DNA from: Burkholderiales bacterium
Lineage (GTDB): Bacteria; Pseudomonadota; Gammaproteobacteria; Burkholderiales; Burkholderiaceae_D
Assembly: GCA_003136595.1 (NCBI GenBank)
Contig: PLEY01000053.1
Coordinates: 3,977 to 52,768 of the forward strand
Direction of reading: 5' to 3'
Length of the DNA: 48,792 nt
In this document: positions 3,733 to 46,551 of the stretch, piece by piece
Numbering within the stretch: the stretch's first letter is position 1
How the letters are laid out: every line of letters starts with the position of its first letter
Translations under genes and position numbers: made by a program
Notes under the pieces: model-generated
The model's database searches: none
What the model was told of the DNA's origin: nothing
The model's input: only the letters and a program-made list of their open reading frames with translations

Positions 3733-5136
3733 CTAGGTCAAGGGCGGTGGGCCCAAGCGGGGCAAGGCCGCTTCGAGCGAGCGCGCTGCCCTGAGTACCA
3801 GCGCATCGGCATGCATCGGTCCGACCAGCTGGGCGGCCAGGGGCAATCCTGCATTGTTCAGCCCACACGGTACGACCACGGCCGGCTGCTGCGTGAGATT
3901 AAAGGGGTAGCTAAAAGGCGTCCAGCCCAGAAAGTCCTCCGGTCCGCGACTGGGCACCCGACCCGTTGGCTCTGCCGCCAGGGCCGCCACGGCCACAGCG
4001 GGCGTGAGCAGCAGGTCATACTGCAGATGGAACTGGCGCATGCGGCTGCCCAGTTCGGCGCGCCGCATGTGGGTCCGGTTCACCTCGAGGCCGCTCAGGA
4101 CGCGCCCTCTCTCGGCCTGCCAGAGGAGCATGGGGTCGAGCTCGCGATGCCGCGTCGGATCAATCCCGTCAACGAGAGTGGCCGCGCCCAGAAACCACAG
4201 TGTGCAGATCAGCTCGAGCGGGTCCTCAAATCCTGGATCGACCGCCTCGACATGGGCGCCCTGATCGGCCAGGACTTCGGCACAATGCGCGACGGCCTGG
4301 GCCACCTCGGAATCGACCTTGGCGTAACCGAGGGTCGGTGAGTAGGCGATACGCAGGCCGCGCACGCCCGCATCGATCCCGATCCGGTAGTCGCAGGCCT
4401 GATAAGGCAGCGCACTCCAGTCGCGCGGATCGGGGCCAGAGAGCACCGTCAGAAGCAGCGCGGCATCCTCGACGGTGCGGGCATGTGGCCCGACATGACT
4501 GAGGCTGCCAAACGGCGAACTGGGCCAGGCCGGCACACGCCCGAAGGACGCCTTGTGGCCGACGATTCCCGAGAATGCCGAAGGGATCCGGATCGAGCCT
4601 GCGCCATCGGTGCCGAGCGCAAGGGGCCCCATCCCGGCGGCAACCGCGGCGGCCGACCCGCCCGAACTGCCCCCCGGCGTGTGCTTCAGATTCCAGGGGT
4701 TGCGCGTCACGCCGGTCAGATAGCTGTCGGTGACGGCCTTGCAGCCAAATTCGGGGGTGGTGGTCTTCCCGAGGAGCACGGCGCCGTGCTCGCGCAAACG
4801 CGCGACAGCCGGGGCGTCGATGTCCCACGGCTGGTTGGCCTCGACACTGAGCGAACCCCGCAGGGTCGAAGAGCCCTTGGTCAGGATGAGATCCTTGACC
4901 GAGACCGGTACCCCGTCCAGAAGACCTCGAGGCGTGCCCTGCTGCCAGCGCGCCTCGGCGGCGCGCGCCGCTTCGAGAGCACCGTTTTCGTCAACCAGGC
5001 GAAACGCGTTGAGCGCCGGGTTCTGCTTGCGGATGCGCCCCAGAACCGCGTCAGTCGCCTCGAGGGGTGACGCCAGGCGGCGGCGGTAGAGCTGGAGCAG
5101 TTCGAGCGCCGAGCAGTCGGCAAGATCGGTGGACAT
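3733..5136 (-). CDS. Amidase signature family protein
   Basis: Amidase signature TPGGSSGGSAAAVAAGMGPLALGTDGAGSIRIPSAFSGIVGHK. Confidence 0.92.
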   Translation of the reverse strand: MSTDLADCSALELLQLYRRRLASPLEATDAVLGRIRKQNPALNAFRLVDENGALEAARAAEARWQQGTPRGLLDGVPVSVKDLILTKGSSTLRGSLSVEANQPWDIDAPAVARLREHGAVLLGKTTTPEFGCKAVTDSYLTGVTRNPWNLKHTPGGSSGGSAAAVAAGMGPLALGTDGAGSIRIPSAFSGIVGHKASFGRVPAWPSSPFGSLSHVGPHARTVEDAALLLTVLSGPDPRDWSALPYQACDYRIGIDAGVRGLRIAYSPTLGYAKVDSEVAQAVAHCAEVLADQGAHVEAVDPGFEDPLELICTLWFLGAATLVDGIDPTRHRELDPMLLWQAERGRVLSGLEVNRTHMRRAELGSRMRQFHLQYDLLLTPAVAVAALAAEPTGRVPSRGPEDFLGWTPFSYPFNLTQQPAVVVPCGLNNAGLPLAAQLVGPMHADALVLRAARSLEAALPRLGPPPLT

Positions 5137-26434: not shown

Positions 26435-27118
26435 ATGGACCCATACCGTCTGACCGGCAAGCGCGTGCTGATCACGCAGACCCAGGAGTTCATGGGGCCG
26501 GCCCTGGTCGCGACATTTCGTGAACTCGGTGCCGTGCTGATCGAGGATGAAGGTGGGCTCACCCGACCCGGGCGCGCCGCGGAACTGGTGCGCAGCGCCG
26601 GCCGCGTCGACGTGCTCATCGCCAACCTCTCGGTGTCGGCTCCGAGCACGCGCGCCGAGGACGTCACGGACGAGGAGTGGCAGGAGGTCTTCGCGCACCT
26701 GGTCGATCCCTTGCCGCGCCTGGTACGCGCGGTCCTGCCCCAGATGATCGAGCGGCGTGCGGGCAAGATCATCGTGATGGGCAGTGCCGCCGCCCTGCGC
26801 GGCCACCGGCGCACGTCGACCTACAGCGCAGCGCGGGGCGCGCAGCTCTCCTACGTCCAGGCGGTCGGCGTGGAGGTGGCACCCCACAACATCCAGATCA
26901 ACGCGATAGCCCAGAACTTTGTCGACAATCCGACCTATTTCCCCGCTTCGGTGCAGGCCAACCCCCGCTTCATCGAACGCCTCCGGAGTGAGGTGCCTGC
27001 CGGCCGCCTCGGGCGGCCGGAAGAAGACGCGGCGCTTGCCGCGTTCCTCGCAAGCGATGCGTGCAGCTTCATGGTGGGACAGGCGATCCCCTTTTGCGGA
27101 GGCTGGGTGACCCGCTAG
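26435..27118 (+). CDS. SDR family oxidoreductase
   Basis: RLTGKRVLITQTQEFMGPALVATF, SSAA-type GSAAALRGHRRTSTYSAARGAQ (YxxxR variant), C-terminal GQAIPFCGGWVTR. Confidence 0.8.
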   Translation: MDPYRLTGKRVLITQTQEFMGPALVATFRELGAVLIEDEGGLTRPGRAAELVRSAGRVDVLIANLSVSAPSTRAEDVTDEEWQEVFAHLVDPLPRLVRAVLPQMIERRAGKIIVMGSAAALRGHRRTSTYSAARGAQLSYVQAVGVEVAPHNIQINAIAQNFVDNPTYFPASVQANPRFIERLRSEVPAGRLGRPEEDAALAAFLASDACSFMVGQAIPFCGGWVTR

Positions 27119-27168
27119 GCCCGACGGGGTTCGCGCTACACTGGGCGTCCCGCCGCTACCGATCCCCC

Positions 27169-28602
27169 ATGCAACTACCTCACGTCGAATGGTCGCTTCC
27201 CTATCTCATCAGCGAGTGGACGGTGCGTATCGCCATGCTGGTGTACGTGCCGCAAAAGCGCAGCCCTTCCGCGGCACGGGCCTGGCTGCTCCTGATCTTT
27301 TTCCTGCCGCTTCCCGGGGTACTGCTCTATGCCCTGGTCGGGCGCATCTACATTCCCAAGCGTCGCATCGCGCTGCAGCGCCAGGCATCGCGACTGATCC
27401 GTTCGGTCCAGACGCGGCTTCCACCGCTACTGGTCTCGAACGCGGTGACTCTGCCGGCGTCGGTGCAGGCGGCCGTGCAACTGGCCGCCGGGCTTGGCGA
27501 CTTTGTCGCCACCCGCGGCAATGCGATCGAGATCCTCCCCGGCTATGAGCGACCCATCGAGTGCCTGATCGACGATCTGCAGGCGGCGCGCGAAAGCATC
27601 CACCTGCTCTACTACATCTTCGAGAACGACGCCACCGGCCAACGGGTGGCCGACGTTCTGATCGGCGCCGCAGGGCGGGGCGTTCGTTGCCGCGTGCTCA
27701 TGGATGCGGTCGGCTCGCGCAGTGCATTACGGGAAATCGCACCGCGCCTGCGCGCGGCAGGCATCGAAGTGCATGCGCTCCTGCCGGTGGGCCTGTTCCG
27801 CCGCAATGTCGCGCGCTTCGATCTGCGCAACCACCGCAAGATCGTGGTCATCGACGCCAACATCGCCTACACGGGGTCACAGAACATTGTCGATGCGGAA
27901 TTCATACCGGGCCTGCCGAACGAGGAGCTGGTGGTGCGCATCGAAGGGCCTGTGGTGACCCAGCTGCAGTACGTGTTCCTCGCGGACTGGTACTTCGAGA
28001 CGAACCAGATCCCGGCCACCGACGAGATCTTGCACGAGCACACAAGCCAGGGCGACACCATCGCCCAGGTCCTGCCGAGCGGGCCCGGGTACGGACGCGA
28101 GAACACCAAGGAACTGATGATCTCGCTCATCTATGCGGCGCGCAGCGAGGTGATCATTGCGACGCCCTACTTCGTACCCGATGAGCCCTTTCTCGAGGCC
28201 GTCATCGCCGCCGCCCGGCGCGGCATCCGCATGCGGCTCATCCTGCCCCTGCGCTCGAACCAGCGCGTCACGCACTGGGCCCAGCAGTCCTATTATGCAC
28301 AGCTGCTCGCCGCCGGCGTCGAGATCCATCTGTTCGAGAAGGGCTTCCTGCACGCGAAGCACATGACCATGGATGGCGAGGTCGCCCTGATCGGATCGAC
28401 CAACATGGACATCCGCTCGTTCGCCCTGAATGCCGAGGTGAGCCTGCTCGCGTATGGGCCGGAATTCGCAGCGCGACTGAACAAGGTCTCGCAGGGCTAT
28501 ATCGAGGGCGGACGCACACTTGACGCCGCGACCTGGTCGCGCCGCCCTCTGGTGCGCAGGCTGCTCCAGAATGTGGCCCGGCTCGCCGACTCGCTGCTCT
28601 AG
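27169..28602 (+). CDS. cls: Cardiolipin synthase (phospholipase D family)
   Basis: Two HKD motifs (NHRKIVVIDANIAYTGSQN; HAKHMTMDGEVALIGSTNMDIRS), N-terminal TM helix pair. Confidence 0.93.
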   Translation: MQLPHVEWSLPYLISEWTVRIAMLVYVPQKRSPSAARAWLLLIFFLPLPGVLLYALVGRIYIPKRRIALQRQASRLIRSVQTRLPPLLVSNAVTLPASVQAAVQLAAGLGDFVATRGNAIEILPGYERPIECLIDDLQAARESIHLLYYIFENDATGQRVADVLIGAAGRGVRCRVLMDAVGSRSALREIAPRLRAAGIEVHALLPVGLFRRNVARFDLRNHRKIVVIDANIAYTGSQNIVDAEFIPGLPNEELVVRIEGPVVTQLQYVFLADWYFETNQIPATDEILHEHTSQGDTIAQVLPSGPGYGRENTKELMISLIYAARSEVIIATPYFVPDEPFLEAVIAAARRGIRMRLILPLRSNQRVTHWAQQSYYAQLLAAGVEIHLFEKGFLHAKHMTMDGEVALIGSTNMDIRSFALNAEVSLLAYGPEFAARLNKVSQGYIEGGRTLDAATWSRRPLVRRLLQNVARLADSLL

Positions 28603-33513: not shown

Positions 33514-34305
33514 ATGCACCCCACCCTTGTTATTGGCATCGGCTTTGCCGTTCTCTTTCTGGTTTTTGCCGGCGCATGGCTCGTGCAGTTGCGCACCCAC
33601 AATGCCGGCATGATCGATCCGGTCTGGTCCTGGTCACTGGGTTTTCTCGGTGTGCTCTATGCCCTCTTCGCGACGGGCGATACGAGCGCGCGGCTCCTTG
33701 TGGGTGTGCTGGGCGGCCTGTGGGGTCTGCGTCTGGGCACCCACCTGTGGCTGCGCAACGTCGGCAAGCCCGAGGATGGGCGCTATCGACGCTTCCGTGA
33801 TCAGTGGGGTCCTAAGGCCAACCGCAACATGTTCTGGTTCTTCGAGTTCCAGGTCGTGCTCGCGATGCTGCTCTCGGTCGGCTTTCTGGTGGTTGCCTAC
33901 CGGAGCGATGCGCCGCCGCCGGGCGCGACGGTGGCCGCGCTCGTGGTCTGGCTGGCCTCGGTGGTCGGCGAGGCGGTCTCGGACTGGCAGCTCGAGAAGT
34001 TCAAGAAGGATCCGGCCCATCGCGGCAAGGTCTGCCGCGCGGGATTGTGGCGCTATTCGCGCCATCCCAACTACTTCTTCGAGTGCCTGCATTGGCCTGT
34101 CTACATCCTGCTGGCGGTGGGCAGCCCCTGGATCTGGGCGACGCTCATCCCCCCGGCCGTCATGGGGTTCCTGCTGCTCAAGGTGTCGGGGATCCCGATG
34201 ACCGAGGCCCAGACCGCCAAGAGCAGGCCGGAGTATGCTGATTACATTCGCACCACCAGCGCCTTCATACCGTGGCCGCCGAAGAGCGTGCGGCCCCAAT
34301 CCTGA
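33514..34305 (+). CDS. DUF1295 domain membrane protein (steroid reductase-like family)
   Basis: DGRYRRFRDQWG, GLWRYSRHPNYFFECLHWPVYILLAVG. Confidence 0.9.
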   Translation: MHPTLVIGIGFAVLFLVFAGAWLVQLRTHNAGMIDPVWSWSLGFLGVLYALFATGDTSARLLVGVLGGLWGLRLGTHLWLRNVGKPEDGRYRRFRDQWGPKANRNMFWFFEFQVVLAMLLSVGFLVVAYRSDAPPPGATVAALVVWLASVVGEAVSDWQLEKFKKDPAHRGKVCRAGLWRYSRHPNYFFECLHWPVYILLAVGSPWIWATLIPPAVMGFLLLKVSGIPMTEAQTAKSRPEYADYIRTTSAFIPWPPKSVRPQS

Positions 34306-34333
34306 ACCTGACCAGCCCTTGCGGAGCCTGCCT

Positions 34334-35437
34334 GTGTCCACCTCGTCGCTTCCCTCGCAACCCTTCAGCTCGCCCTCGCGCGTGACGAGCCTCATTGACT
34401 TGTGCGAGCGCGGCTACGTTCCCGACGCGCTCGCGCGACTCGGCATGCGGCGCTTGATCGGGGAGCGTCTTGAGATGGAGACACGCGGCGGCCCCGAAGC
34501 CGCAACCCGCCGGCTCGCGGGGCTGCTCAACGAGTTGCGCGCAAGCCCTATCGCCATTGAAACCCACCAGGCCAACAGCCAGCACTACGAGGTCCCGGCC
34601 GAATTCTTCCATCTGCACCTGGGTCCTTGCCTGAAGTACTCGAGCTGCCTGTATCCGAGTGGCGGGGAGACGCTCGAGGAGGCCGAGATCGCGATGCTCG
34701 AGACTGTCGCCGAGCGCGCAGGACTCGCCGACGGCCAGAGGATCCTTGATCTCGGCTGCGGCTGGGGTTCACTGTCCCTGTGGCTCGCGGCGCGCTTTCC
34801 GGAAGCCCAGATCGTCGGACTGTCCAACTCGCGTGGCCAGCGCCAGTTCATCGAGGCGCGCGCCGCAGAACGCGGGCTGTCGAATCTGCAGGTCGTCACC
34901 GGCAATGTCGCGGAGGTGGACTTTCCCCTTGGGGGAGTCGCGGCCGGATTCGATCGCATCGTCTCGATCGAAATGTTCGAGCACATGAAGAACTATGATC
35001 AGCTGCTCGCCAAGCTCGCGCGCTGGATGCAGCCCGAGGCACGGCTGTTTGTGCACATCTTTGCCCATCGCAGCGTCGCCTACCATTTCGAGGTCCAGGA
35101 CCGTTCCGACTGGATGACCCAGTATTTTTTTGCAGGGGGCATCATGCCCTCGCAGAACCTGTTGTTGCACTTCCAGGATCAGATGCGGGTGATCGACACC
35201 TGGTGGGTTGATGGCCGTCACTACGAGAAGACCGCAAACCACTGGCTAGCCGGGATGGACCGCGCGCGCGCCCCGATTCTCCAGATCTTCCAGCGCGCCT
35301 ATGGGGCGGACCTCGCAGTGATCTGGTTCAACCGCTGGCGGATGTTCTACATGGCGGTGGCCGAGCTGTTCGGCTATCGCGGCGGCCAGGAGTGGGGTGT
35401 GGGCCACTACCTGTTCGAGAAGCGCAGCCCCGCCTAG
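34334..35437 (+). CDS. Cyclopropane-fatty-acyl-phospholipid synthase family SAM methyltransferase
   Basis: HYEVPAEFFHLHLGPCLKYSSCLY, ILDLGCGWGSLSLWLA, VSIEMFEHMKNY. Probable GTG start at 34334, just after DUF1295. Confidence 0.9.
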   Translation: MSTSSLPSQPFSSPSRVTSLIDLCERGYVPDALARLGMRRLIGERLEMETRGGPEAATRRLAGLLNELRASPIAIETHQANSQHYEVPAEFFHLHLGPCLKYSSCLYPSGGETLEEAEIAMLETVAERAGLADGQRILDLGCGWGSLSLWLAARFPEAQIVGLSNSRGQRQFIEARAAERGLSNLQVVTGNVAEVDFPLGGVAAGFDRIVSIEMFEHMKNYDQLLAKLARWMQPEARLFVHIFAHRSVAYHFEVQDRSDWMTQYFFAGGIMPSQNLLLHFQDQMRVIDTWWVDGRHYEKTANHWLAGMDRARAPILQIFQRAYGADLAVIWFNRWRMFYMAVAELFGYRGGQEWGVGHYLFEKRSPA

Positions 35438-35932: not shown

Positions 35933-36940
35933 TCATCGGCTGGCCCGGGTCACGGCCAGGGACTGCACCATGCCCTCGGAAGCACCGATCGCAGCGAAGC
36001 CGTGCCCGGTATAGACCTTCTGACCGCCCGGCCCGACCAGCCACATCAGAAAATCCCGCGCCAGAGTCTCATGCGGCCCGTGCGCGAGGGACCCGGCAAA
36101 GTAGGTCACCAAATCCCTGCCGCTCTGCTCGGGGGGCAGGGCAATGCCTTCCACCGCAGCGCCGCCGCGCACCGCCTCCTCGACCTCCGTGCTCCACACC
36201 AGGGCGACATCGGCGCCCCCTTGTGACACGCCTCTGGGCGCTTCGCGATGATGCACTCTGGCGAAGTGGACATGGCCGGCCCGGTCACAGTCGCGGCACG
36301 GATCGCCGCCGACGAGCTGGTCCCACAGGCCAAGGCTCCTTAAGATGGGCTCCCCGTAGATCTTCATGATCCCCTCGTCGAGGGGGTTGGGCAGCAGGAC
36401 CCGCAGCTCGGGCCGCGTCAGATCGTGCAGGTCGACGACCCGCCTCGGGTTGCCCCGAGCGACCAGGAGCTGCAACTCGTTGTGCGCATAGCGGACATAC
36501 TCCGAGACCCGGCGCGTCGCGCGCAGGTCGTCGAGGCTGATCGAGCCATAGATATCCGGCGTGCCAGGGTACGCGCGTCCCCGCAAACGCCAGCCACCCG
36601 CCTGGATCGCACGCAGCTCGAGTTCCGGCGGCATGGTGATGACGCCGATGCGCGCACCCGGATGAAGCGCCTGAAACGCCGCCACGGCATCGGGGATCGC
36701 GAGGAACTGGTTGCCTGCGCACCAGACCACCAGATCGGCATCGTGTGCCATGCGTGCAAGCGCGGGCGACCCCTCGTGGCGCCTACCCTGCGCATCAAAA
36801 TAACTGAGGTCGGCCGGCGTGTCCGCAGGCAGTGCGGGATACGGGGCCGCGGCCGCGAGCCCGCAATGCGCCGCGAGCAGCGCGAGCGTCAGCGCTCGTG
36901 GCCAGCGGAGCCGGCGGAACCTCATCGGATGCGCGCCCAA
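35933..36940 (-). CDS. ModA-like extracellular solute-binding protein with a Cys/His cluster
   Basis: Signal sequence ALTLALLAAHCGLAAAAP; VVWCAGNQFLAIPDAVAAFQALHPG; LLPNPLDEGIMKIYGEPIL; DPCRDCDRAGHVHFARVHHREAP. Confidence 0.7.
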   Translation of the reverse strand: MGAHPMRFRRLRWPRALTLALLAAHCGLAAAAPYPALPADTPADLSYFDAQGRRHEGSPALARMAHDADLVVWCAGNQFLAIPDAVAAFQALHPGARIGVITMPPELELRAIQAGGWRLRGRAYPGTPDIYGSISLDDLRATRRVSEYVRYAHNELQLLVARGNPRRVVDLHDLTRPELRVLLPNPLDEGIMKIYGEPILRSLGLWDQLVGGDPCRDCDRAGHVHFARVHHREAPRGVSQGGADVALVWSTEVEEAVRGGAAVEGIALPPEQSGRDLVTYFAGSLAHGPHETLARDFLMWLVGPGGQKVYTGHGFAAIGASEGMVQSLAVTRASR

Positions 36941-37038
36941 GGGGGTGTGCCGCGCGCGTCCTCACACCGGATTTGAGAAGGTATAGTGGGCGCCATGATG
37001 GGATGTTATATCAACGGGTCCCCAGCCTGCGCAACTCC

Positions 37039-38997
37039 ATGAGCACCCCGTTTACCCTCGAATATACCGTCCCGGCCACAGCCCACACGGCCGCCCTGGC
37101 TGACCTTGGGGGACTCGAGCGGCGGCGCACGCGCTCCGGGCTTCACTGGGTCCGGGGCGGCGTGCTCTTAACCGCGGCCCTCGGCGTGGTATCAGCCCAA
37201 CAGCATGGGCTCCTCCCCGCTCTGCCCGCGCCGGGTCTTGGCCTCGTGCTCGTGCTCGTGCTCGGCCTGGCGCTGGGCCTCTTGGTTGCACGCTGGCTCG
37301 GATCGGCTACGGGCCTTCGGGAGGCGGCGGGCATGCTGGCCGGACCCTGTCGCCTTGAGATCGAGGGCGGTGAACTGGTCTGGCGCCAGGGGCGGCGCAC
37401 GCTGCGGATCGGGATCGCGGGCGTGACACACATCGAAGAGGTCCCCTCCGGTCTCGTGGTGTGCGCCGAGCAACGCGCCTTGCTGTGGATCCCCGTGGGT
37501 GCGTTCACCGAGAGCCAGCCGGTGGCCGAACTGCTCGGCGCGATCGCCCAGATCCGGCTAAGCGGCGTCGGGGAGACGCGCAGAAACGCTCACGGGTTCC
37601 TCCCCCTTCTGCGCGGCTATCTTTTCAATGTCGGCTGCGGCCTCGCGTGCGCTGTGTTCTGGCCGCTCCCGGGAGCCCGGATCGATAGCCGGCCCGCGCA
37701 GTGGCTGGCGCTCGCAGCGACACTCCTCGTGAGCACGGGCGCGCTCGAGTATGCCGCCACGGGCGCGGCGGGGCAGTTCAATCCTGCGGCGATTCCCGGC
37801 CTTCTCTTTCTGCTGCCGGTGCTGCTCGTCGCAGGCGGCGTGGCCGGGGCGGTGGCCGGGCGCAGCAGTGCGATGGCGCAGATCGCCACGCTTGGATTGG
37901 CCGCCAGCATCTTTAGCGAGCCGGTCTGCCGCCTCTTGATCCGCGTGCCCGGGATCGCGGACCGGCTGGCAACCCTGGTCCCCGAGGAGGCTTTCGCACA
38001 GACGCTCAATGCGGCCTGGCTGGGGTTGGCCCTCGCGCTTGCCTTCCTGTGGCGCCTGCGGCCCGGGCCGGTCCGCGCGGTGCCGGCTGTGGCCGTTTTG
38101 ATGGCCGTGATGGCGCTTGCGCAGGCCGTCGTTCCCTATGACGACGCGCTGTGGGTGATCCCTGACGACAGCGAGGCGGGTGCCGACCCTGACCCGGGCT
38201 CCGCGGCCAACGCCTGGGCGGCCGAGGACGGGGTGGCGGGTGAAGAGCGCCTGTACCGCGAGTCCCATGTTCTCGATGGCACGCTCGGGCACCTGGCACC
38301 AGCGCGCCGCGACCGCGTGAATCTCTACTTCGTCGGTTTCGCCGGCACCGCGACCCAGGACGTGTTCATGAAGGAGACCCACAGCATCGGCAAGCTGTTC
38401 GAGAGGCGCTTCCAGGCAGGCGCGCACTCGGTGCTGCTGGTCAACAATCCGGCGACGCTCGACGCCGAACCGATGGCGACCCGCAGCGCGCTCGCGCAGA
38501 CCCTCACGCGCATCGGCTCCCTGATGGATCCGGAACGCGACATCCTCTTCCTCTACATGACCTCGCACGGCAGTCCGGATCACAGTTTTGCCGTGTCGTT
38601 TCCACCCTGGCCGCTCGCGTCGATCCGCCCCGAGGACCTGCGCGAGATGCTCGATGAGGCGGGGATCCGCAATCGCGTGGTCGTGATTTCGGCCTGTTAC
38701 TCAGGTGGATTCATCGACGCCCTGAAGACCGACTATTCCCTGATTATGACCGCTGCAGCGGCGGATCGCTCGTCGTTCGGCTGCTCAAGCGAGGAGGATT
38801 TCACGTACTTTGGCAGGGCCTACTTCGACGAGGCTCTGCGTTCCACATCGTCGTTCGTGGAAGCCTTCCGCCTGGCGGCGCCGAACATCGCCCGGCGCGA
38901 GGCCGAGCAGGGGTTCGTTCCGTCCGAGCCGCAGCTCTACGAGGGCGCACGCATCGCGCCCATCCTGCGGCGCTTCGAGCATCAGCTACAGCGCTGA
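37039..38997 (+). CDS. Membrane protein with C-terminal C13 family (legumain-like) cysteine peptidase domain
   Basis: ILFLYMTSHGSPDHSF (His, codon 38566-38568) and VVVISACYSGGFIDAL (Cys, codon 38695-38697), a C13/caspase-clan dyad; several TM helices upstream. Start MSTPFTLEYTV. Confidence 0.85.
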   Translation: MSTPFTLEYTVPATAHTAALADLGGLERRRTRSGLHWVRGGVLLTAALGVVSAQQHGLLPALPAPGLGLVLVLVLGLALGLLVARWLGSATGLREAAGMLAGPCRLEIEGGELVWRQGRRTLRIGIAGVTHIEEVPSGLVVCAEQRALLWIPVGAFTESQPVAELLGAIAQIRLSGVGETRRNAHGFLPLLRGYLFNVGCGLACAVFWPLPGARIDSRPAQWLALAATLLVSTGALEYAATGAAGQFNPAAIPGLLFLLPVLLVAGGVAGAVAGRSSAMAQIATLGLAASIFSEPVCRLLIRVPGIADRLATLVPEEAFAQTLNAAWLGLALALAFLWRLRPGPVRAVPAVAVLMAVMALAQAVVPYDDALWVIPDDSEAGADPDPGSAANAWAAEDGVAGEERLYRESHVLDGTLGHLAPARRDRVNLYFVGFAGTATQDVFMKETHSIGKLFERRFQAGAHSVLLVNNPATLDAEPMATRSALAQTLTRIGSLMDPERDILFLYMTSHGSPDHSFAVSFPPWPLASIRPEDLREMLDEAGIRNRVVVISACYSGGFIDALKTDYSLIMTAAAADRSSFGCSSEEDFTYFGRAYFDEALRSTSSFVEAFRLAAPNIARREAEQGFVPSEPQLYEGARIAPILRRFEHQLQR

Positions 38998-39014: not shown

Positions 39015-40640
39015 TCACGCGATGATCTTCCGCGCCGCCCGATAACCCCACCAGGCGGCCTCCTCGAACACGGACAGGCCAGACAGATCAGAATGGGCGA
39101 AGAGGATCGGCCCGTTGCTCTCCTGCAGCGCAATGCGACCGGGCGTGCTCAGAAAGCCGGGCCCAGGCGTTGCCATGGCATGGCCCCGCACGGATATCTC
39201 AACGCGCTCGACGCAGGGTGCGAGCTTCCATCCATAGGCGCGCCGCAAGCCGCGCGCCGCCCGCTCAAGGAGGGCTGCCGGAGTGGCGGCTTCAAGCCAC
39301 TGTCTGGCCGCGTCCGGTTCGAGGTCGGCGAGCGCCTCGTAGGCAGAGAACACCGTATGGTTCGGGCGGCTCTGGCGGATCGCTTCGTGGGTCGAGACCA
39401 CATAGCCCAGCCCGGGTTCCTGATAGATCACATTGTCCCAGGCCAGTGCCGCCCCCGCGCGCTCTTCGGGAAATGCATTCATCAGGAAGTTCGAAACCAG
39501 CCAGGGTGCGTAGCGGGGCATGTCGCGGCGCGCGTCAAAGCCGAGCGCAGCAAGCTCAGGCACGATGCGCGCCGCCACAAAGAGCGGCGTCGCCACAATG
39601 ACGCGCTTCGCCCTGATCGCAAAGCTTCTGAGCTCGGTACCCGCAAGGTCGACGCACAGCGCCTCGACCCCCGCCGGGCCGGCCGTGACCGCTGCGGCGC
39701 AGCCGCGTTCGAGCCGTCCTTCCAGCCCGGCGCGCTCGTAGAGGCCACGGGCGAGCGCGCCCAACCCCTCCGGCCAGGTCAGCACCGCGCCGCGTCCGGC
39801 GTTCTCGGCGAGCCCGGCGCGCGCGCAGAAATAGTGCAGCCCGGCCCAGGCGGAGACCTCGGCCGGGCGTCGTCCATAGTCGTCGCGGCAGCAGTAGTCG
39901 AGATACCAACGCAGGCTCTCGGAGCGAAAGTGGTTGTCGTCGAGCCACACGTCAAAAGGGCGCTGATCCAGTGCCGTCCAGGCCGGATCGCGCGAGGACA
40001 TCTCGACGGGCACGACAAATACGCGCCGCCCGTCCGCCCCGCGCTGGGCCGTGAGCTCGTCAATCAGTGCGAAAAACCGCTCGCGCTCAGCCAGGGCGTT
40101 GCTCGAAAGCTGCGCCAGCGGTTCATAGCCGTCCTCCCAGCTCGATCCGTAGAGCACGCGCTCGCCCGGCGCATGCAGGAGGTAGCGCTCATCGTAGTAG
40201 GGGCGCTCGCTATAGGGATTGCGCAGGATGATGCCCAAGTCGAACAGGAGTTCCCGGACATGCCCCGATTCCATCGAGGGCAGCGGCAGGTAGTGCGCGC
40301 CGGTGGGGTAGTGCAGGGTCTCGCCGGACGTGCTGAAGGTCCCGGCTGCGGCATTGCCGAAGAGCTCGGGGCCCGCCACCATCAGTACGTCCTTAAGGCC
40401 GGCCTTGTGCAACTGCCACGCCGCGGTCAACCCTGCGATGCCCGACCCGAGGATCAGTACCTCGGTGTCCCGGCGCCGGGTCGCAGGCGGCAAGGTCTTG
40501 AGATCGCGCAGCACGTGGCCGAGCTCCCGGCCTGGATAGCGCACCTCGGTGGCCATCTGCTGCCACTGCCAGAATCCGCCTGCCGTGACGCCGGCCGCAC
40601 CCAGGGCGCCGGCGCCCAAAAGAAACGCGCGTCGGTCCAT
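39015..40640 (-). CDS. FAD-dependent amine-oxidase-like oxidoreductase with Tat-like N-terminus
   Basis: MDRRAFLLGAGALGAAG (RRxFL) and EVLILGSGIAGLTAAWQLHKAGL (GxGxxG); C-terminal NGPILFAHSDLSGLSVFEEAAWWGYRAA. Confidence 0.88.
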   Translation of the reverse strand: MDRRAFLLGAGALGAAGVTAGGFWQWQQMATEVRYPGRELGHVLRDLKTLPPATRRRDTEVLILGSGIAGLTAAWQLHKAGLKDVLMVAGPELFGNAAAGTFSTSGETLHYPTGAHYLPLPSMESGHVRELLFDLGIILRNPYSERPYYDERYLLHAPGERVLYGSSWEDGYEPLAQLSSNALAERERFFALIDELTAQRGADGRRVFVVPVEMSSRDPAWTALDQRPFDVWLDDNHFRSESLRWYLDYCCRDDYGRRPAEVSAWAGLHYFCARAGLAENAGRGAVLTWPEGLGALARGLYERAGLEGRLERGCAAAVTAGPAGVEALCVDLAGTELRSFAIRAKRVIVATPLFVAARIVPELAALGFDARRDMPRYAPWLVSNFLMNAFPEERAGAALAWDNVIYQEPGLGYVVSTHEAIRQSRPNHTVFSAYEALADLEPDAARQWLEAATPAALLERAARGLRRAYGWKLAPCVERVEISVRGHAMATPGPGFLSTPGRIALQESNGPILFAHSDLSGLSVFEEAAWWGYRAARKIIA

Positions 40641-42151
40641 CAGCGGATCACTTGATGCCAGTCTTCGTCGAAATAGCGCACCAGCGACTGGTCGTTCAGA
40701 TGGTTCGCCTCAACCACCGGGTGGGGCATATCCGGAGGGAATGCGAACATCTCGCGCGTCACCTCGGCGTTCAGAAACTGCATCGGCAGGCTGTAGTGCT
40801 GGGGGGGCTCGAACGCCTGTTCCGGCGTGGCGAGAATGAATCCCCATTCGCCGAACGAGGGAACGTAGACATGATAGGGATAGGTCCTAAGCCCCGCCTC
40901 CTTCAGGGTGGCGTCGATCGACCAGTAGGCGTGGGGGGCAAAGTAGGGCGAGGTCGACTGCACGACGACGATGCCATGCGCTGATACGCTCTTCTTGACC
41001 AGGCTGTAGAAGGGCACGGAATAGAGCTTGCCGAGGGCGAAGGAGGACGGATCGGGGAAATCGACGAAGACGGCGTCGAACGAGGTCCGGTTCTCGGCGA
41101 TCCAAAGCGCGGCATCGGCATTGATCAGATGCACCCGCGGATCTGAGAACGAGCCCTGGTTCAGGGCCACGAGGGGTGCCGAACTCGAGAACAGCGAGGT
41201 CATCTCCGGGTCCAGATCAACCAGGGTGACGCTCTGGATGTTCGGGTAGCGCAGGATCTCCCGGAGCGCGAGGCCATCGCCGCCGCCCAGGACCAGCACC
41301 GAGCGCGCCCACGGCAGGCTCGCCAGGGCAGGGTGCACAAGGGCCTCGTGATACCGGTGTTCATCGCGCGAGGAGAACTGCAGATTGCCGTTGATATAGA
41401 GGCGCAGATCGTCCTTCCAGCGGGTGATGACCAGGCGCTGGTACGGGGTGGTCACGGCGTGCACGATCTCATCGCCAAACAGCCCGCGCTCGCCCCAGTA
41501 GACAAGGCGATCCGAGGCAACCAGCCCGAAGGCAAGCAGGGCAAACACGACCGAGCCGCGCAGCACGCGCGCTGCGGGCTTCTCGATCGCATCCCGAAAC
41601 GAGTGGATCGTCCAAAGCGCCACGCCCACGTTGATCATGCCAAACAGGAAGCCCGTTCGTGTGAGGCCCAGATGCGGAGCCAGCACCAGGGGAAACAGCA
41701 GCGAGACCGCAAGCGCGCCCAGATAATCGAAGGTCAGGACGCGGCTGACCAGTTCAGCAAAGCGCGCCTCGCGCGCGTTCAGGGCGCGCATGACGAGCGG
41801 GATCTCCAGGCCGATCAGGGCGCCGATCACGAACACCAGGGCGTAGAGCAGCGTGCGAAACGGTGCGGCGAGCCACGAGAAGGTCAGAAACAGCGCGGCG
41901 GCCGAGACCCCGCCGACCAGTCCGATGGCCAGCTCGATGTCGACAAAGCGCGACAGGACATCGCGGTCCTGCACGTAGCGCGACAAGTGGGAGCCGATGC
42001 CCATGGCGAACAGGTAGCAGCCGATGACCGTCGAGAATTGCAGCACCGAATCGCCAAGCAGATAGCTCGACAGGGCCCCGGCGATGAGTTCATAGGCCAG
42101 GCCGCACGAGGCGACAAAAAAAACGGAAATTACTAAAATGCGATCAGTCAT
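40640..42151 (-). CDS. Polyamine aminopropyltransferase (spermidine synthase-like) with N-terminal multi-TM domain
   Basis: MTDRILVISVFFVASCGLAYELIAGALSSYLLGDSVLQFS membrane domain, then VLVLGGGDGLALREILRYPNIQSVTLVDLDPEMT and FDAVFVDFPDPSSFALGKLYS. Confidence 0.93.
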   Translation of the reverse strand: MTDRILVISVFFVASCGLAYELIAGALSSYLLGDSVLQFSTVIGCYLFAMGIGSHLSRYVQDRDVLSRFVDIELAIGLVGGVSAAALFLTFSWLAAPFRTLLYALVFVIGALIGLEIPLVMRALNAREARFAELVSRVLTFDYLGALAVSLLFPLVLAPHLGLTRTGFLFGMINVGVALWTIHSFRDAIEKPAARVLRGSVVFALLAFGLVASDRLVYWGERGLFGDEIVHAVTTPYQRLVITRWKDDLRLYINGNLQFSSRDEHRYHEALVHPALASLPWARSVLVLGGGDGLALREILRYPNIQSVTLVDLDPEMTSLFSSSAPLVALNQGSFSDPRVHLINADAALWIAENRTSFDAVFVDFPDPSSFALGKLYSVPFYSLVKKSVSAHGIVVVQSTSPYFAPHAYWSIDATLKEAGLRTYPYHVYVPSFGEWGFILATPEQAFEPPQHYSLPMQFLNAEVTREMFAFPPDMPHPVVEANHLNDQSLVRYFDEDWHQVIR

Positions 42152-42186
42152 CGCGCTCGAAGCGGGCTGATGTGATAATAGGGACG

Positions 42187-42597
42187 ATGCCACATCCGGG
42201 GAGGATGTTTTTGGAGATCATCGTCAATTATGCCTTGCACCTGGTCACCGCAGGGCTGCTTCTGTTCGTGTTTTTCCTCGTCTACACCTGGGCGACGCCG
42301 TTTGACGAAGTCGGGCTCATCCGCCAGGGCAACGGCGCTGCGGCGTTGACGCTCGGCGGGGCGCTGATCGGATTCTCGCTGACGGTGGCCTCCGGTATAG
42401 TGCATAGCGACTCGCTGCTCCAGTTCTTCGCCTGGTCCGTCGGGGCGGCGATCGTGCAGCTCCTGGCCTACCTGCTGGTCACCCGCCTTCTGCACATGTC
42501 CAAAGCCCAGATCGAAGGCGGCAACGTGGCCTTCGGAGGACTTTTGGCGGCAATCTCGATTGCGGTAGGCGCGGTCAACGCCGCCTGCCTGTCCTGA
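42187..42597 (+). CDS. DUF350 (YjfL-like) membrane protein
   Basis: LIRQGNGAAALTLGGALIGFSLTVASGIVHS and GNVAFGGLLAAISIAVGAVNAACLS; DUF350 pattern with four TM helices. Confidence 0.88.
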   Translation: MPHPGRMFLEIIVNYALHLVTAGLLLFVFFLVYTWATPFDEVGLIRQGNGAAALTLGGALIGFSLTVASGIVHSDSLLQFFAWSVGAAIVQLLAYLLVTRLLHMSKAQIEGGNVAFGGLLAAISIAVGAVNAACLS

Positions 42598-42648
42598 CGT
42601 ACTGCTTGGCCCTGCAGCCTTTTCACCTCAATCCCTAGGGAGTCCAGC

Positions 42649-43644
42649 ATGAGCCTCGGATCGTTTATCAAGAAGCAGTTCATCGACATTCTGCAGTGGA
42701 ACGAGGAGACCGAGGGCGTGCTCGCCTACCGCTATCCGATGCAGGATTTTGAAATCCAGTATGGTGGCAGTCTGACGGTACGCGAATCGCAGGTCGCCGT
42801 GTTCGTCAACGAGGGCAAGATCGCCGACGTGTTCGGACCGGGGATGTACAAGCTCACGACCCAGACGCTGCCGGTGCTGACCTACCTGAAGAACTGGGAC
42901 AAGCTGTTCGAGTCGCCCTTCAAATCCGATGTCTATTTCTTCAGCACGCGCGTGCAGACCGGCCGCAAGTGGGGCACCCCCCAGGCCATCACGCTGCGCG
43001 ATCAGGACTTTGGCATGGTGCGCCTGCGTGCCTTTGGCATGTACTCCTATCGCGTCGCGGACGCGCGCAAGTTCTTCACAGAAATCAGCGGCACGCGCGC
43101 CGTCTACACCCGCGACGATCTCGAAGAGCAGCTGCGCAGCATCCTGGTGTCGACCATCGCCACGGCGCTGGGCTCATCAAGCGTGCCTTTTCTCAACATG
43201 GCGGGCAACCAGGCGCTGATGGGCGATCAGGTCAAGGGAAGCGTGGCCGCCGCGTTCGAGAAGTATGGCCTGGCCGTCGATGTCTTCAACGTCACCAGCA
43301 TCAATCTGCCCGAGGACCTTCAGGAAGCGCTCGACAAGCGCATCTCGATCGGCATGTCGGGCGATCTGAACAAATATACGCAGTACCAGGTGGCCAATGC
43401 GATTCCGCTTGCAGCCCAGAACGAAGGGGGGCTGGCGGGTCTCGGTGCCGGCCTGTCGAGCGGCATGGTATTCGGCCAGACGATGGCCCAGGGCATGGCT
43501 GGCGCCCAGGCCGCAGCGGTCGCGGCCCAGGATGACCCTGAGGCCCGGCTCCTGAAACTGAAGGGCATGCTCGACAAGGGACTGATCTCGGCGGCCGACT
43601 ATGATTCGGCCAAGGCGGAAGTGCTAAAGAAACTGGTGAGCTAG
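42649..43644 (+). CDS. SPFH domain protein (YdjI-like) with C-terminal SHOCT-like segment
   Basis: LTVRESQVAVFVNEGKIADVFGPGMYKLTTQTLPVL, and C-terminal RLLKLKGMLDKGLISAADYDSAKAEVLKKL. Confidence 0.9.
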   Translation: MSLGSFIKKQFIDILQWNEETEGVLAYRYPMQDFEIQYGGSLTVRESQVAVFVNEGKIADVFGPGMYKLTTQTLPVLTYLKNWDKLFESPFKSDVYFFSTRVQTGRKWGTPQAITLRDQDFGMVRLRAFGMYSYRVADARKFFTEISGTRAVYTRDDLEEQLRSILVSTIATALGSSSVPFLNMAGNQALMGDQVKGSVAAAFEKYGLAVDVFNVTSINLPEDLQEALDKRISIGMSGDLNKYTQYQVANAIPLAAQNEGGLAGLGAGLSSGMVFGQTMAQGMAGAQAAAVAAQDDPEARLLKLKGMLDKGLISAADYDSAKAEVLKKLVS

Positions 43645-43659
43645 GCCAGCCTGCGCCTC

Positions 43660-45111
43660 ATGCAGCATGTCACCTGTCCCGGGTGCGGCGCCCAGGTCGA
43701 CTTCAGGTCGCCCGCCTCGGTCATGGCGGTCTGCGAGTACTGCAAGACGACGGTCCTAAAGGATGCGGACTCGGTCAAGGACCTTGGCAAGATGTCCGAG
43801 GTCCTTGAGGATTATTCCCCCATCCAGATCGGTACCACCGGTGTCTTCGACGGACGCGGCTTTGCAGTGGTCGGTCGCATCCAGCTGCGCTATCCGGACG
43901 GCTTCTGGAATGAATGGTACATCCTCTTTGACGACGCCCAGGCAGGCTGGCTAGCGGACGCCTCCGGCCAATTCACCCTCACGTTCGAGAAGCCCGAACT
44001 GGCCGCGCCGGGCGACTTCGCCCAGCTCAGGCCCGGAGTGAATCTCAATCTCGGCGGGGAGGTTTACTGCGCCTCGGACGTGCGCACCGCGCGTTGCACG
44101 GCCGGCCAGGGCGAGTTGCCCTTTCGCGTCGGCCCCGGCTGGCAGGCCCAGGTGGCCGATTTTCGCAGCGGCGCCCGCTTCCTGACCCTCGATTATTCCG
44201 ACGCAGGAAGTCCGAAGGCCTACGTCGGTCGCGCAGTGGGTCTGGGCGAGCTCAAGGCGCAACTGTTGCGCGATTCCGGCGACATCGGTGACACAGTCGG
44301 GCGCTTCCGGGGCAAGGTCGGCAGGCTCGCCTGTCCCTCATGCGGTGGTGAGGTCAGCTATTCGCCAGGCATGACCTCCCATTTCATCTGTCCTTCCTGC
44401 CATGCCGAAGTCGATGTCTCCAGTTCGACGGCCGTGGTCCTCAGCGCGGCACGCACGCTCGCCGCGGCGCCCTTCACCCTCACGCTTGGCAAGACCGCCA
44501 CGATCGACGGCGCACCCTACACGCTCCTCGGTGCACTGCGTCGCGCCGAGACCGGCCAGAGCGCCTCGAGCTGGAGCGAGTACCTGCTCTACGCGCCGGG
44601 GCGCAGTTTCATCTGGCTCATCGAAACCGAGGAGGGCTGGCAGCGCGCCGAGGTTCTGAACAGCTGGCCCACCTGGCCGGAGCCGGAACGGGTGGTGCTG
44701 GACGGCCGGACCTTCCGGCGCTTTGCGACTTACACGGCCCAGGTCACCTATGCACTCGGTTCGTTCAACTGGCGGGTCGCAGTGGGCGAGACCGCGCAGG
44801 TGGCGGAATTCCAGGACCGGCAGGAGACTCTGGCCGCGGAGGCCACTGCGGAAGAGCTCACCTGGTCACGCTCCCGGCCGCTCGCGGTCGACCAGGTCCG
44901 GGCCTGGTTTGGAGAGGAGATCCATGAAGAGCAGCACCAGCATCCGAGCTATCTGCGCTCGGCGCGCTGGATCGTGATCGCGCTTGTTCTCATCAATGCG
45001 ATACCCCTCGTGCTGGCCACGCGCAGCGTCCTCCTCTACCTCATCGTCGCGACCGTGGCGATCTACCTGCCTGCCTTCATTCTGGACAAGATGGGCGGAA
45101 ATTCCCCATGA
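43660..45111 (+). CDS. DUF4178 protein with two zinc ribbons and C-terminal TM helices
   Basis: HVTCPGCGAQVDF...CEYCKTTVLKD and LACPSCGGEVSY...CPSCHAEVDVSS; DUF4178-like blocks GTTGVFDGRGFAVVGRIQLRY and LGKTATIDGAPYTLLGALRR. Confidence 0.87.
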   Translation: MQHVTCPGCGAQVDFRSPASVMAVCEYCKTTVLKDADSVKDLGKMSEVLEDYSPIQIGTTGVFDGRGFAVVGRIQLRYPDGFWNEWYILFDDAQAGWLADASGQFTLTFEKPELAAPGDFAQLRPGVNLNLGGEVYCASDVRTARCTAGQGELPFRVGPGWQAQVADFRSGARFLTLDYSDAGSPKAYVGRAVGLGELKAQLLRDSGDIGDTVGRFRGKVGRLACPSCGGEVSYSPGMTSHFICPSCHAEVDVSSSTAVVLSAARTLAAAPFTLTLGKTATIDGAPYTLLGALRRAETGQSASSWSEYLLYAPGRSFIWLIETEEGWQRAEVLNSWPTWPEPERVVLDGRTFRRFATYTAQVTYALGSFNWRVAVGETAQVAEFQDRQETLAAEATAEELTWSRSRPLAVDQVRAWFGEEIHEEQHQHPSYLRSARWIVIALVLINAIPLVLATRSVLLYLIVATVAIYLPAFILDKMGGNSP

Positions 45112-45293
45112 AAGGCAAGTTCCTGATGTACGCGATCATTGTCGCGCTGGGCTCCTCGGTCATGAGTTGGGGCAGCCTTGCCGCCCGCGCGGGCGGCGGC
45201 AGCGGCAGCGGTAATTCCTGGCATTCCTATAGCTCCGGGCCGGGCTACAGCGGGGGCGGCTGGGCGGGTGCCTCGGGCGGAGGCCACAAATGA
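45108..45293 (+). CDS. Small Gly/Ser-rich membrane or secreted protein (61 aa)
   Basis: MKGKFLMYAIIVALGSSVMSWGS hydrophobic segment plus GGGSGSGNSWHSYSSGPGYSGGGWAGASGGGHK; 4-bp overlaps with both neighbours. Confidence 0.8.
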   Translation: MKGKFLMYAIIVALGSSVMSWGSLAARAGGGSGSGNSWHSYSSGPGYSGGGWAGASGGGHK

Positions 45294-45706
45294 CAGCCCA
45301 TGCACCGCATGGGCTGCACTGCCTGGCCGACCTGTCGGGGGTCCGAGCGGAACTGCTCATCGATTGCGCCTTCCTCGAAGCGACACTGCGCGAGGCGGCC
45401 AAGGCCGCGGGCGCGCAGGTCCTGTTCGCCCGATTCCACAGCTTTGGCAGCGGACTCGGAGTGACCGGTGTCGTCCTCCTTGCAGAATCGCATGTCACGA
45501 TCCACACCTGGCCGGAGGCGCGCTTTGCGGCACTGGACATATTCCTGTGCGGACGCGCCGACACGGCCCGGGCGTTGCAGGCACTTGTCGGCGCGCTCGC
45601 GCCGGAATCGTGCCGCGTTCAGAACGTCGCACGCGGCGTCGACGACCCCGTGCCGGGCGCTTTGGCGGGGGCGCCCAAAATCTCCCGGGGAGCGTCCTCG
45701 CATTGA
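45290..45706 (+). CDS. speD: S-adenosylmethionine decarboxylase (SpeD-like, pyruvoyl type)
   Basis: GVVLLAESHVTIHTWPEARFAALDIFLCG, the canonical ES-H-x-x-IHTWPE self-cleavage site; predicted pyruvoyl Ser codon 45488-45490. Confidence 0.93.
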   Translation: MTAHAPHGLHCLADLSGVRAELLIDCAFLEATLREAAKAAGAQVLFARFHSFGSGLGVTGVVLLAESHVTIHTWPEARFAALDIFLCGRADTARALQALVGALAPESCRVQNVARGVDDPVPGALAGAPKISRGASSH

Positions 45707-45876: not shown

Positions 45877-46551
45877 ATGAATGCCCGAGCGGCAGTGCCG
45901 CATGCGAGGCTGCTGTGGGCAGCCGTTCTGAGCTCTGTCCTGTTGTGCCTGGGCGAGGGGTCCAGCTTCGCGAGCACCCTCTACGACGTCTCGAACAACG
46001 GTACCCTGACAGCCTCAGTAGGCCCGGGCGCTGCGAGCAATGCGGGTACGGCTGAGAACGATCTGACGCTGCTTGCGAGCCCGTTGACGAGCGGCTTTAA
46101 TTTCAGCGGTGTCACAGGCTCGACGAGCCAGGGCCAGAGTGCCGGCGGATTTTTTTACACGGACTATCTTTTTCGCGTCACGCCCGCGACGGCCGACGCC
46201 GTCACGATCACCTTGAACAACGCCTCGGGCGTGCAGAACCTGCAGGAGCGTCTCTATCAGTTCCCTGCGGCATTTGCTTTTGACGCGGCCGTGCCCTCCG
46301 GGCTTATTCAGGCGTGGGGCTCGACCACCAGCGCGGGCGGGGCGAGCTATTCAGTCATACCGAGCACGGACCTTAGTGTCGCAGGCTTGTATGTCCTCGA
46401 GGTGCGGGGGACGAGCGCCGGCAATTTCGGGGGCGATCTGGCGCTGTCTCCCGTGCCGCTTCCAGCCCCGCTTGGCTTGATGCTGGGGGGTCTTGCTGTC
46501 TTCGCAGCAGTCGCAGGGCGCAGGATGCGGCCTGCCGGCCAACCCGCCTGA
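45877..46551 (+). CDS. VPLPA-CTERM (exosortase-type) sorted surface protein
   Basis: Signal peptide, Ser/Thr/Gly-rich body, C-terminal VPLPAPLGLMLGGLAVFAAVAGRRMRPAG = VPLPA motif + TM + basic tail. Confidence 0.85.
   Translation: MNARAAVPHARLLWAAVLSSVLLCLGEGSSFASTLYDVSNNGTLTASVGPGAASNAGTAENDLTLLASPLTSGFNFSGVTGSTSQGQSAGGFFYTDYLFRVTPATADAVTITLNNASGVQNLQERLYQFPAAFAFDAAVPSGLIQAWGSTTSAGGASYSVIPSTDLSVAGLYVLEVRGTSAGNFGGDLALSPVPLPAPLGLMLGGLAVFAAVAGRRMRPAGQPA

Follow-up and report, generated by a model that had tools for sequence, protein, structure and literature searches.

A conserved bacterial locus pairs a membrane aminopropyltransferase with a protein ending in lysine, a candidate aminopropyl acceptor

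Introduction

What does an aminopropyltransferase act on when it is built into the membrane? The question is raised by a locus at positions 39015-45706 of a stretch of 48,792 nucleotides (contig PLEY01000053.1 of the Burkholderiales assembly GCA_003136595.1, forward-strand positions 3,977 to 52,768), which we call the window and to whose first letter all coordinates refer. The locus has two divergent arms, one with a membrane aminopropyltransferase (APT) and an amine-oxidase-like flavin adenine dinucleotide (FAD) enzyme, the other with SpeD, three membrane-linked proteins (DUF350, SPFH and DUF4178) and a 61-residue membrane-anchored microprotein (45108-45293, plus strand) with a Gly/Ser/Trp-rich tail and the end -GGGHK. 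We propose, with moderate confidence, that the locus encodes a dedicated membrane system for protein aminopropylation in which the C-terminal lysine of the tail protein is the acceptor.

Loci of this class have been described before. Li 2019 reportedly found clusters of an MFS/transmembrane (TM) spermidine synthase with S-adenosylmethionine decarboxylase (AdoMetDC) and DUF350; the fusion is said not to complement a speE mutant, spermidine was reportedly absent from the hosts, and an acceptor other than putrescine was reportedly proposed and left unnamed. Ravi 2024 (PMC11237479) describes operons that combine a 7TM-spermidine-synthase fusion with DUF350, DUF4178 and a novel lipoprotein (Ctha_1186), and variants of these operons that replace PspA by a band-7/SHOCT protein and add AdoMetDC and a polyamine oxidase; a role in polyamine and membrane dynamics is put forward with no defined acceptor, and the main text does not mention lysine. 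The locus of the window falls into this class, with a spermidine-synthase-like domain on about seven N-terminal TM helices (AlphaFold2 (AF2) model and NF002956), linked DUF350, DUF4178 and AdoMetDC, a band-7/SHOCT protein replacing PspA, and the oxidase. Because Ravi 2024 and Li 2019 describe the operon class, the inference of a preliminary description of this DNA (a dedicated system that makes or modifies an aminopropylated amine at the membrane and then oxidises it) was largely known; that description had missed that both the class and the idea of a non-putrescine acceptor are published. The main new result is the partner protein with its C-terminal lysine as proposed acceptor, and no paper on the aminopropylation of proteins or of lysine turned up in the literature library searched.

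Results

The locus and its terminal lysine are conserved

We found 80 close loci in a collection of 85,462 species genomes, and all six main genes are kept in order and orientation in the 74 of them that have enough flank (74/74), so the gene set is not a chance association. The linkage on which the preliminary description had made its reading depend is thus found throughout, and it supports a dedicated membrane locus for aminopropylation whose genes are tightly linked. Among 60 relative genomes, 15 encode DUF4178, and in 14 of these 15 a TM-APT lies within about 5.4 kb; the exception (G008) is a 73%-complete genome in which a short contig bears DUF350 and DUF4178. Of 299 genomes drawn from across the phylum, 32 encode a full-length TM-APT above the NF002956 cut-off. 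Viral contigs, when scanned, yielded two loci, of which one has an incomplete flank and the other is a partial match.

The partner protein of each close locus was taken by position only, as the first open reading frame (ORF) after the DUF4178 gene. It ends in -His-Lys in 75 of 75 close loci (50-75 residues, 73 distinct sequences) and consists of an N-terminal hydrophobic segment followed by a Gly/Ser/Trp-rich, acid-poor tail. The last lysine codon is AAA in 32 loci and AAG in 43, and since both codons are used, the constraint acts on the residue. In the window, the terminal His-Lys is encoded by CAC AAA at 45285-45290 (plus strand), the side-chain amine of this lysine being the group proposed to be modified, and -GGHK followed by a stop occurs a single time in the whole genome. 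As background, 6.3% of long ORFs end in lysine; in the close set the share is 0% for APT, DUF350, SPFH and SpeD, 16% for DUF4178 and 28% for the FAD enzyme.

Beyond the close set, a terminal lysine was found in all 38 of the distant or plasmid loci that could be tested, three initial gaps having been filled by follow-up (locus L151, whose APT lies at a contig end, was left out of the count). The partners are 47 to 571 residues long, with the tail as the only shared form, and end in -HK, -RIK, -RVK, -GGK, -GSGK or -RGK; blastp sorts 30 separate distant or plasmid partners into 15 clusters, among them the close type, and nearly all their tails are acid-free. Plasmids searched with the microprotein sequence itself, under a low-complexity filter, gave no match. 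In the long-APT lineages the lysine ends a protein of 311-571 residues, usually a lipoprotein, and in six loci (L142, L144, L146, L147, L152 and L202) the tail is fused as the C-terminus of the DUF4178 protein; a hidden Markov model of the microprotein matches a tail of this fused type. The three gaps had been considered as exceptions to the lysine rule, and each proved to have a lysine-ending partner: for the isolated APTs of L161 and L164, a search with the whole lipoprotein gave one homologue each, elsewhere in the genome beside DUF350, ending -RFGGGK and -IRGGK, and in L145, which is split by an insertion, the DUF4178 protein is encoded a few kb further and ends -GGGHK. The inserted genes that separate the APT and DUF4178 arms in L145/L202 (genome G264, contig C2) are possibly a restriction-modification island.

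When the tail classes HK, GK and [IV]K are placed on the APT tree, 3 changes are needed (minimum 2, shuffled mean 16.4). This agreement shows a stable association of tail class with APT, which by itself is no proof of enzyme-substrate contact. The lysine tails are predicted to lie outside the cytoplasm because of the N-terminal basic residues of the microproteins and the lipoboxes of the lipoproteins. The microprotein, mentioned only in passing by the preliminary description, is probably the key part of the locus.

A seven-helix aminopropyltransferase with a remodelled acceptor end

The APT (40640-42151, minus strand; alternative start GTG at 42193) scores 681.7 bits against NCBIfam NF002956 (cut-off 472). 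Its AF2 model (predicted local distance difference test score, pLDDT, 90.8) has 7 TM helices in residues 2-211, a linker helix at 213-225 and a spermidine-synthase-fold domain at about 228-503 (first strand 228-234), with a Foldseek match to 1uir (E 1.3e-16). Among 53 sequences, the GGGDG motif (G289-G293), Y267, H268, D364 and D367 vary little or not at all, and by this alignment the site for decarboxylated S-adenosylmethionine (dcSAM) and the catalytic Asp pair are retained. In A. thaliana SPDS1 (AtSPDS1), an N-terminal hairpin with E50 and W55 closes the putrescine groove (PMC6514230). This beta-hairpin is absent from the AF2 secondary structure of the APT, where TM7 and helix 213-225 stand in its place. 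Basic residues average 9.2 in the loops 2-3, 4-5 and 6-7 versus 1.9 in the others, and this positive-inside bias has the same direction, with the N-terminus inside, in 53 of 53 sequences. With the N-terminus inside and seven helices, the catalytic domain of the model would be periplasmic, and we consider that it probably faces that side.

The FAD enzyme and the other genes of the locus

The FAD enzyme (39015-40640, minus strand; amine-oxidase superfamily, PF01593/PF13450) starts with MDRRAFLLGAG, a twin-arginine translocation (Tat)-like N-terminus. A strict Tat motif is present in 89 of 93 homologues and the twin Arg in 13 of the 13 sequences displayed, which bears out the Tat-like FAD enzyme of the preliminary description; several homologues also carry a lipobox and would be Tat lipoproteins. 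In its AF2 model (pLDDT 91.9), the fold neighbours in the PDB are putrescine oxidase, MAO, PPOX and SpdH, at 12-20% identity. By its signal and amine-oxidase FAD fold it is a predicted Tat-exported flavin amine oxidase. The FAD gene is absent from some loci (L150-L170 types) that still keep the lysine tail, so the terminal lysine goes with the APT, not with the FAD enzyme.

All seven genes are real and lie where the preliminary description had placed them; equally confirmed are the 35-bp stretch between the divergent ORF starts (42152-42186) and the ATGA overlap of the APT and FAD enzyme genes on the leftward arm. The rightward arm, all on the plus strand, begins with a small multi-TM DUF350 protein of the YjfL type (42187-42597; PF03994, 113 bits, 1.1e-32; alternative start GTG at 42172) and an SPFH/band-7 protein (Band_7_1, YdjI-like; 42649-43644; PF13421, 250 bits, 2.4e-74) with a weak SHOCT-like match at its C-terminus (1e-4). 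These are followed by a double-DUF4178 protein with two zinc ribbons and C-terminal TM segments (43660-45111; PF13785, 109 bits, 2e-31, in 2 stretches), the microprotein and SpeD, a class-1b S-adenosylmethionine decarboxylase (45290-45706; TIGR03330, 113 bits), the genes for DUF4178, microprotein and SpeD overlapping successively. SpeD has the catalytic Ser/His/Cys motif (ESHVTIHTWPE...DIFLCG), and ESHxxxHTWPE...C is found in 74 of 75 homologues, the remaining one being truncated by a contig end. Half-size DUF350 proteins of about 70 residues lie beside the APT in L144, L184 and L147. DUF350 matches of 77-99 bits in L142, L146, L147 and L153 are ORFs antisense to the APT, probably picked up because the DUF350 profile had been built partly from over-long ORFs, and were disregarded. 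In one relative genome (G049), SpeD and SpeE are fused in a single protein (L176), which does not belong to the TM-APT family.

Polyamine genes elsewhere in the genome

The APT and SpeD genes are the sole Spermine_synth and AdoMet_dc genes of the assembly, which is 94% complete. The preliminary description had stated that classical speA, speB and speC are lacking. This holds for the window and does not extend to the genome, which encodes one OKR-type (AAT-fold) decarboxylase and two genes of the arginase/agmatinase family; its single PF02784 match reads as LysA. With an OKR decarboxylase and arginase-family genes, a diamine is probably available in the host.

Neighbouring genes in the window

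Adjoining the locus at 37036-38997 (plus strand) is a gene for a multi-TM protein with a C-terminal C13/legumain-like peptidase domain (PF01650, 2e-26), which lies by the locus in L002 too and is absent beside the other close loci. An extracellular solute-binding protein (SBP_bac_11; 35933-36940, minus strand) is likewise encoded near the locus in L002, and immediately 3' of speD lies a gene for an FxDxF-family PEP-CTERM exosortase-sorted protein (45877-46551, plus strand). Two membrane-lipid enzymes are encoded within the window, a cardiolipin-synthase-like PLD protein (27061-28602, plus strand) and a cyclopropane-fatty-acid-synthase-like (CMAS) protein (34235-35437, plus strand).

Discussion

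In the proposed model, cytoplasmic SpeD would produce dcSAM, and the 7-TM APT would attach the aminopropyl group to the C-terminal lysine of the membrane-anchored tail protein through the amine of its side chain, not to putrescine, which the lysine side chain, H2N-(CH2)4-, may mimic. This would yield peptide-bound N-epsilon-(3-aminopropyl)lysine, a product resembling deoxyhypusine. By way of the TM domain of the APT, dcSAM would reach the periplasmic catalytic domain, the modified tail may be oxidised by the Tat-exported FAD enzyme in loci that encode it, and SPFH, DUF350 and DUF4178 would arrange the complex at the inner membrane. This fuller version, in which the C-terminal lysine is aminopropylated outside the cytoplasm by the 7-TM APT, with dcSAM reaching it via the membrane and FAD oxidation in some lineages, we hold only tentatively, as somewhat less probable than not. 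Judging by the SPFH, PspA and DUF350 company, the role is probably in envelope maintenance or stress. The preliminary description had expected an unusual acceptor, such as a lipid or protein amine; a protein amine, that of the lysine tail, is probable, and a lipid amine is less likely. Its suggestion of a defence role found no support, since the PADLOC scan matches no catalogued system and gave only a match of the APT to mad2 (a generic methyltransferase-type region) and one to the Rossmann region of the FAD enzyme.

Several points weigh against lysine aminopropylation. The residue D367, counterpart of the one that binds the far amine of putrescine, is kept in the APT, and the probable availability of putrescine in the host would favour an ordinary acceptor. 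The data set is narrow, comprising Pseudomonadota and one Gemmatimonadota, and in the first choice of some distant partners the lysine served as a filter, though position (next to the APT or DUF4178) or homology also identifies most of them. We know of no periplasmic dcSAM, so a periplasmic APT domain would depend on dcSAM being transported or reaching it via the TM domain, unless the predicted topology is wrong; the supply of dcSAM to a periplasmic domain is the weak point of the model.

A serious rival, if an unlikely one, is that the terminal lysine is a Braun-type peptidoglycan anchor joined by L,D-transpeptidases encoded elsewhere, while the APT modifies a lipid or a free amine. A C-terminal lysine is the hallmark of Braun's lipoprotein, E. 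coli Lpp, where it is cross-linked to peptidoglycan, and this counts against our proposal; the partners described here are, moreover, periplasm-facing TM proteins or lipoproteins. However, we recognised no gene for an L,D-transpeptidase in the loci, whose flanking genes were only partly scanned, the lysine tail is tied to the presence of the TM-APT with a penultimate residue that follows APT phylogeny, and partners of such different sizes have only the tail in common. Rather improbable, too, is an ordinary membrane-bound synthase of spermidine or a related polyamine, with the tail protein and the SPFH set as mere membrane organisers. The sole Spermine_synth and AdoMet_dc genes of the genome, the retained Asp pair, the NCBIfam name (polyamine aminopropyltransferase) and a plausible putrescine route through the OKR decarboxylase and agmatinase-like genes all fit it, yet the fusions of Li 2019 reportedly fail in speE complementation and come from bacteria said to lack spermidine, the 7-TM fusion and the remodelled acceptor end speak against it, and it leaves the invariant C-terminal lysine unaccounted for.

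The idea that Ravi 2024 (PMC11237479) puts forward for the operon class, a polyamine-sensing envelope-stress module in which SpeD, APT and oxidase tune free polyamine at the membrane and PspA or SPFH respond, agrees with the SPFH and PspA partners; we think it quite improbable for loci of the window type, as the oxidase is absent from many loci, no conserved regulator was seen in window-type loci and the terminal lysine is again not accounted for. Finally, the FAD enzyme might be the lysine-directed component, acting like lysyl oxidase to form an aldehyde for cross-linking, with the APT acting on an unrelated molecule. Its predicted export and its membership in the superfamily of MAO, putrescine oxidase and LSD1 are in keeping with this, but the lysine tail persists in loci that have no FAD gene (L150-L170 types), and we regard it as very unlikely.

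The invariant C-terminal lysine makes the acceptor of these widespread membrane APTs directly testable by mass spectrometry. If aminopropylation of this lysine is confirmed, N-epsilon-aminopropyl-lysine would be an added protein modification, and SpeD would gain a role outside free polyamines.

Comparison with known systems

The clusters of Li 2019 and our loci are alike in the linkage of TM-APT, SpeD and DUF350, and a C-terminal-lysine partner is put forward here on the ground of its invariance. The operons of Ravi 2024 (PMC11237479) have a similar gene set, for which a C-terminal-lysine acceptor is proposed here. With SpeE of E. coli, A. thaliana and T. maritima the APT shares the catalytic fold, GGGDG, the Asp pair and the Tyr-His motif; it differs in its 7-TM domain, the replaced groove-closing hairpin and a loop, STSPYFAP, after Q398. 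Deoxyhypusine synthesis on eIF5A also modifies one protein lysine with an amine, using a different donor and enzyme, and E. coli Lpp shares a C-terminal lysine on a lipoprotein; we claim no sequence relation in either case.

The preliminary description had drawn an analogy to the E. coli yjf locus, and it runs deeper than proposed there: in yjf, too, a polyamine enzyme linked to DUF350 and PspA has as its neighbour a lipoprotein whose C-terminal tail is flexible. Both YgiC and YjfC of E. coli carry the annotation of peptide-spermidine ligase, and YgiBC and YjfMC each pair a DUF1190 lipoprotein with such an ATP-grasp ligase (Pederick 2023). The DUF1190 lipoproteins YgiB, YjfM and L191-L195 end in -GG in 7 of 7 cases. 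The -GG shared by all seven DUF1190 lipoproteins examined (L191-L195, L186 and L188) may be the C-terminal site at which ligases of the YgiC/YjfC type act on them. The locus of the window is not itself of the YgiB/YjfM type, as the genome has no DUF1190, the locus has no ATP-grasp gene and the partner ends in -HK. Ligase chemistry thus stands beside -GG in one system, and an APT beside -K in the other. A carboxylate is required for ligation and an amine for aminopropyl transfer, and the C-termini of the partners fit each chemistry; if the proposal holds, the lysine tails would be the amine-side counterpart to the -GG lipoproteins beside peptide-spermidine ligases, and the YgiB/YjfM ligase systems and the TM-APT family would be united as cationic capping of lipoprotein C-termini.

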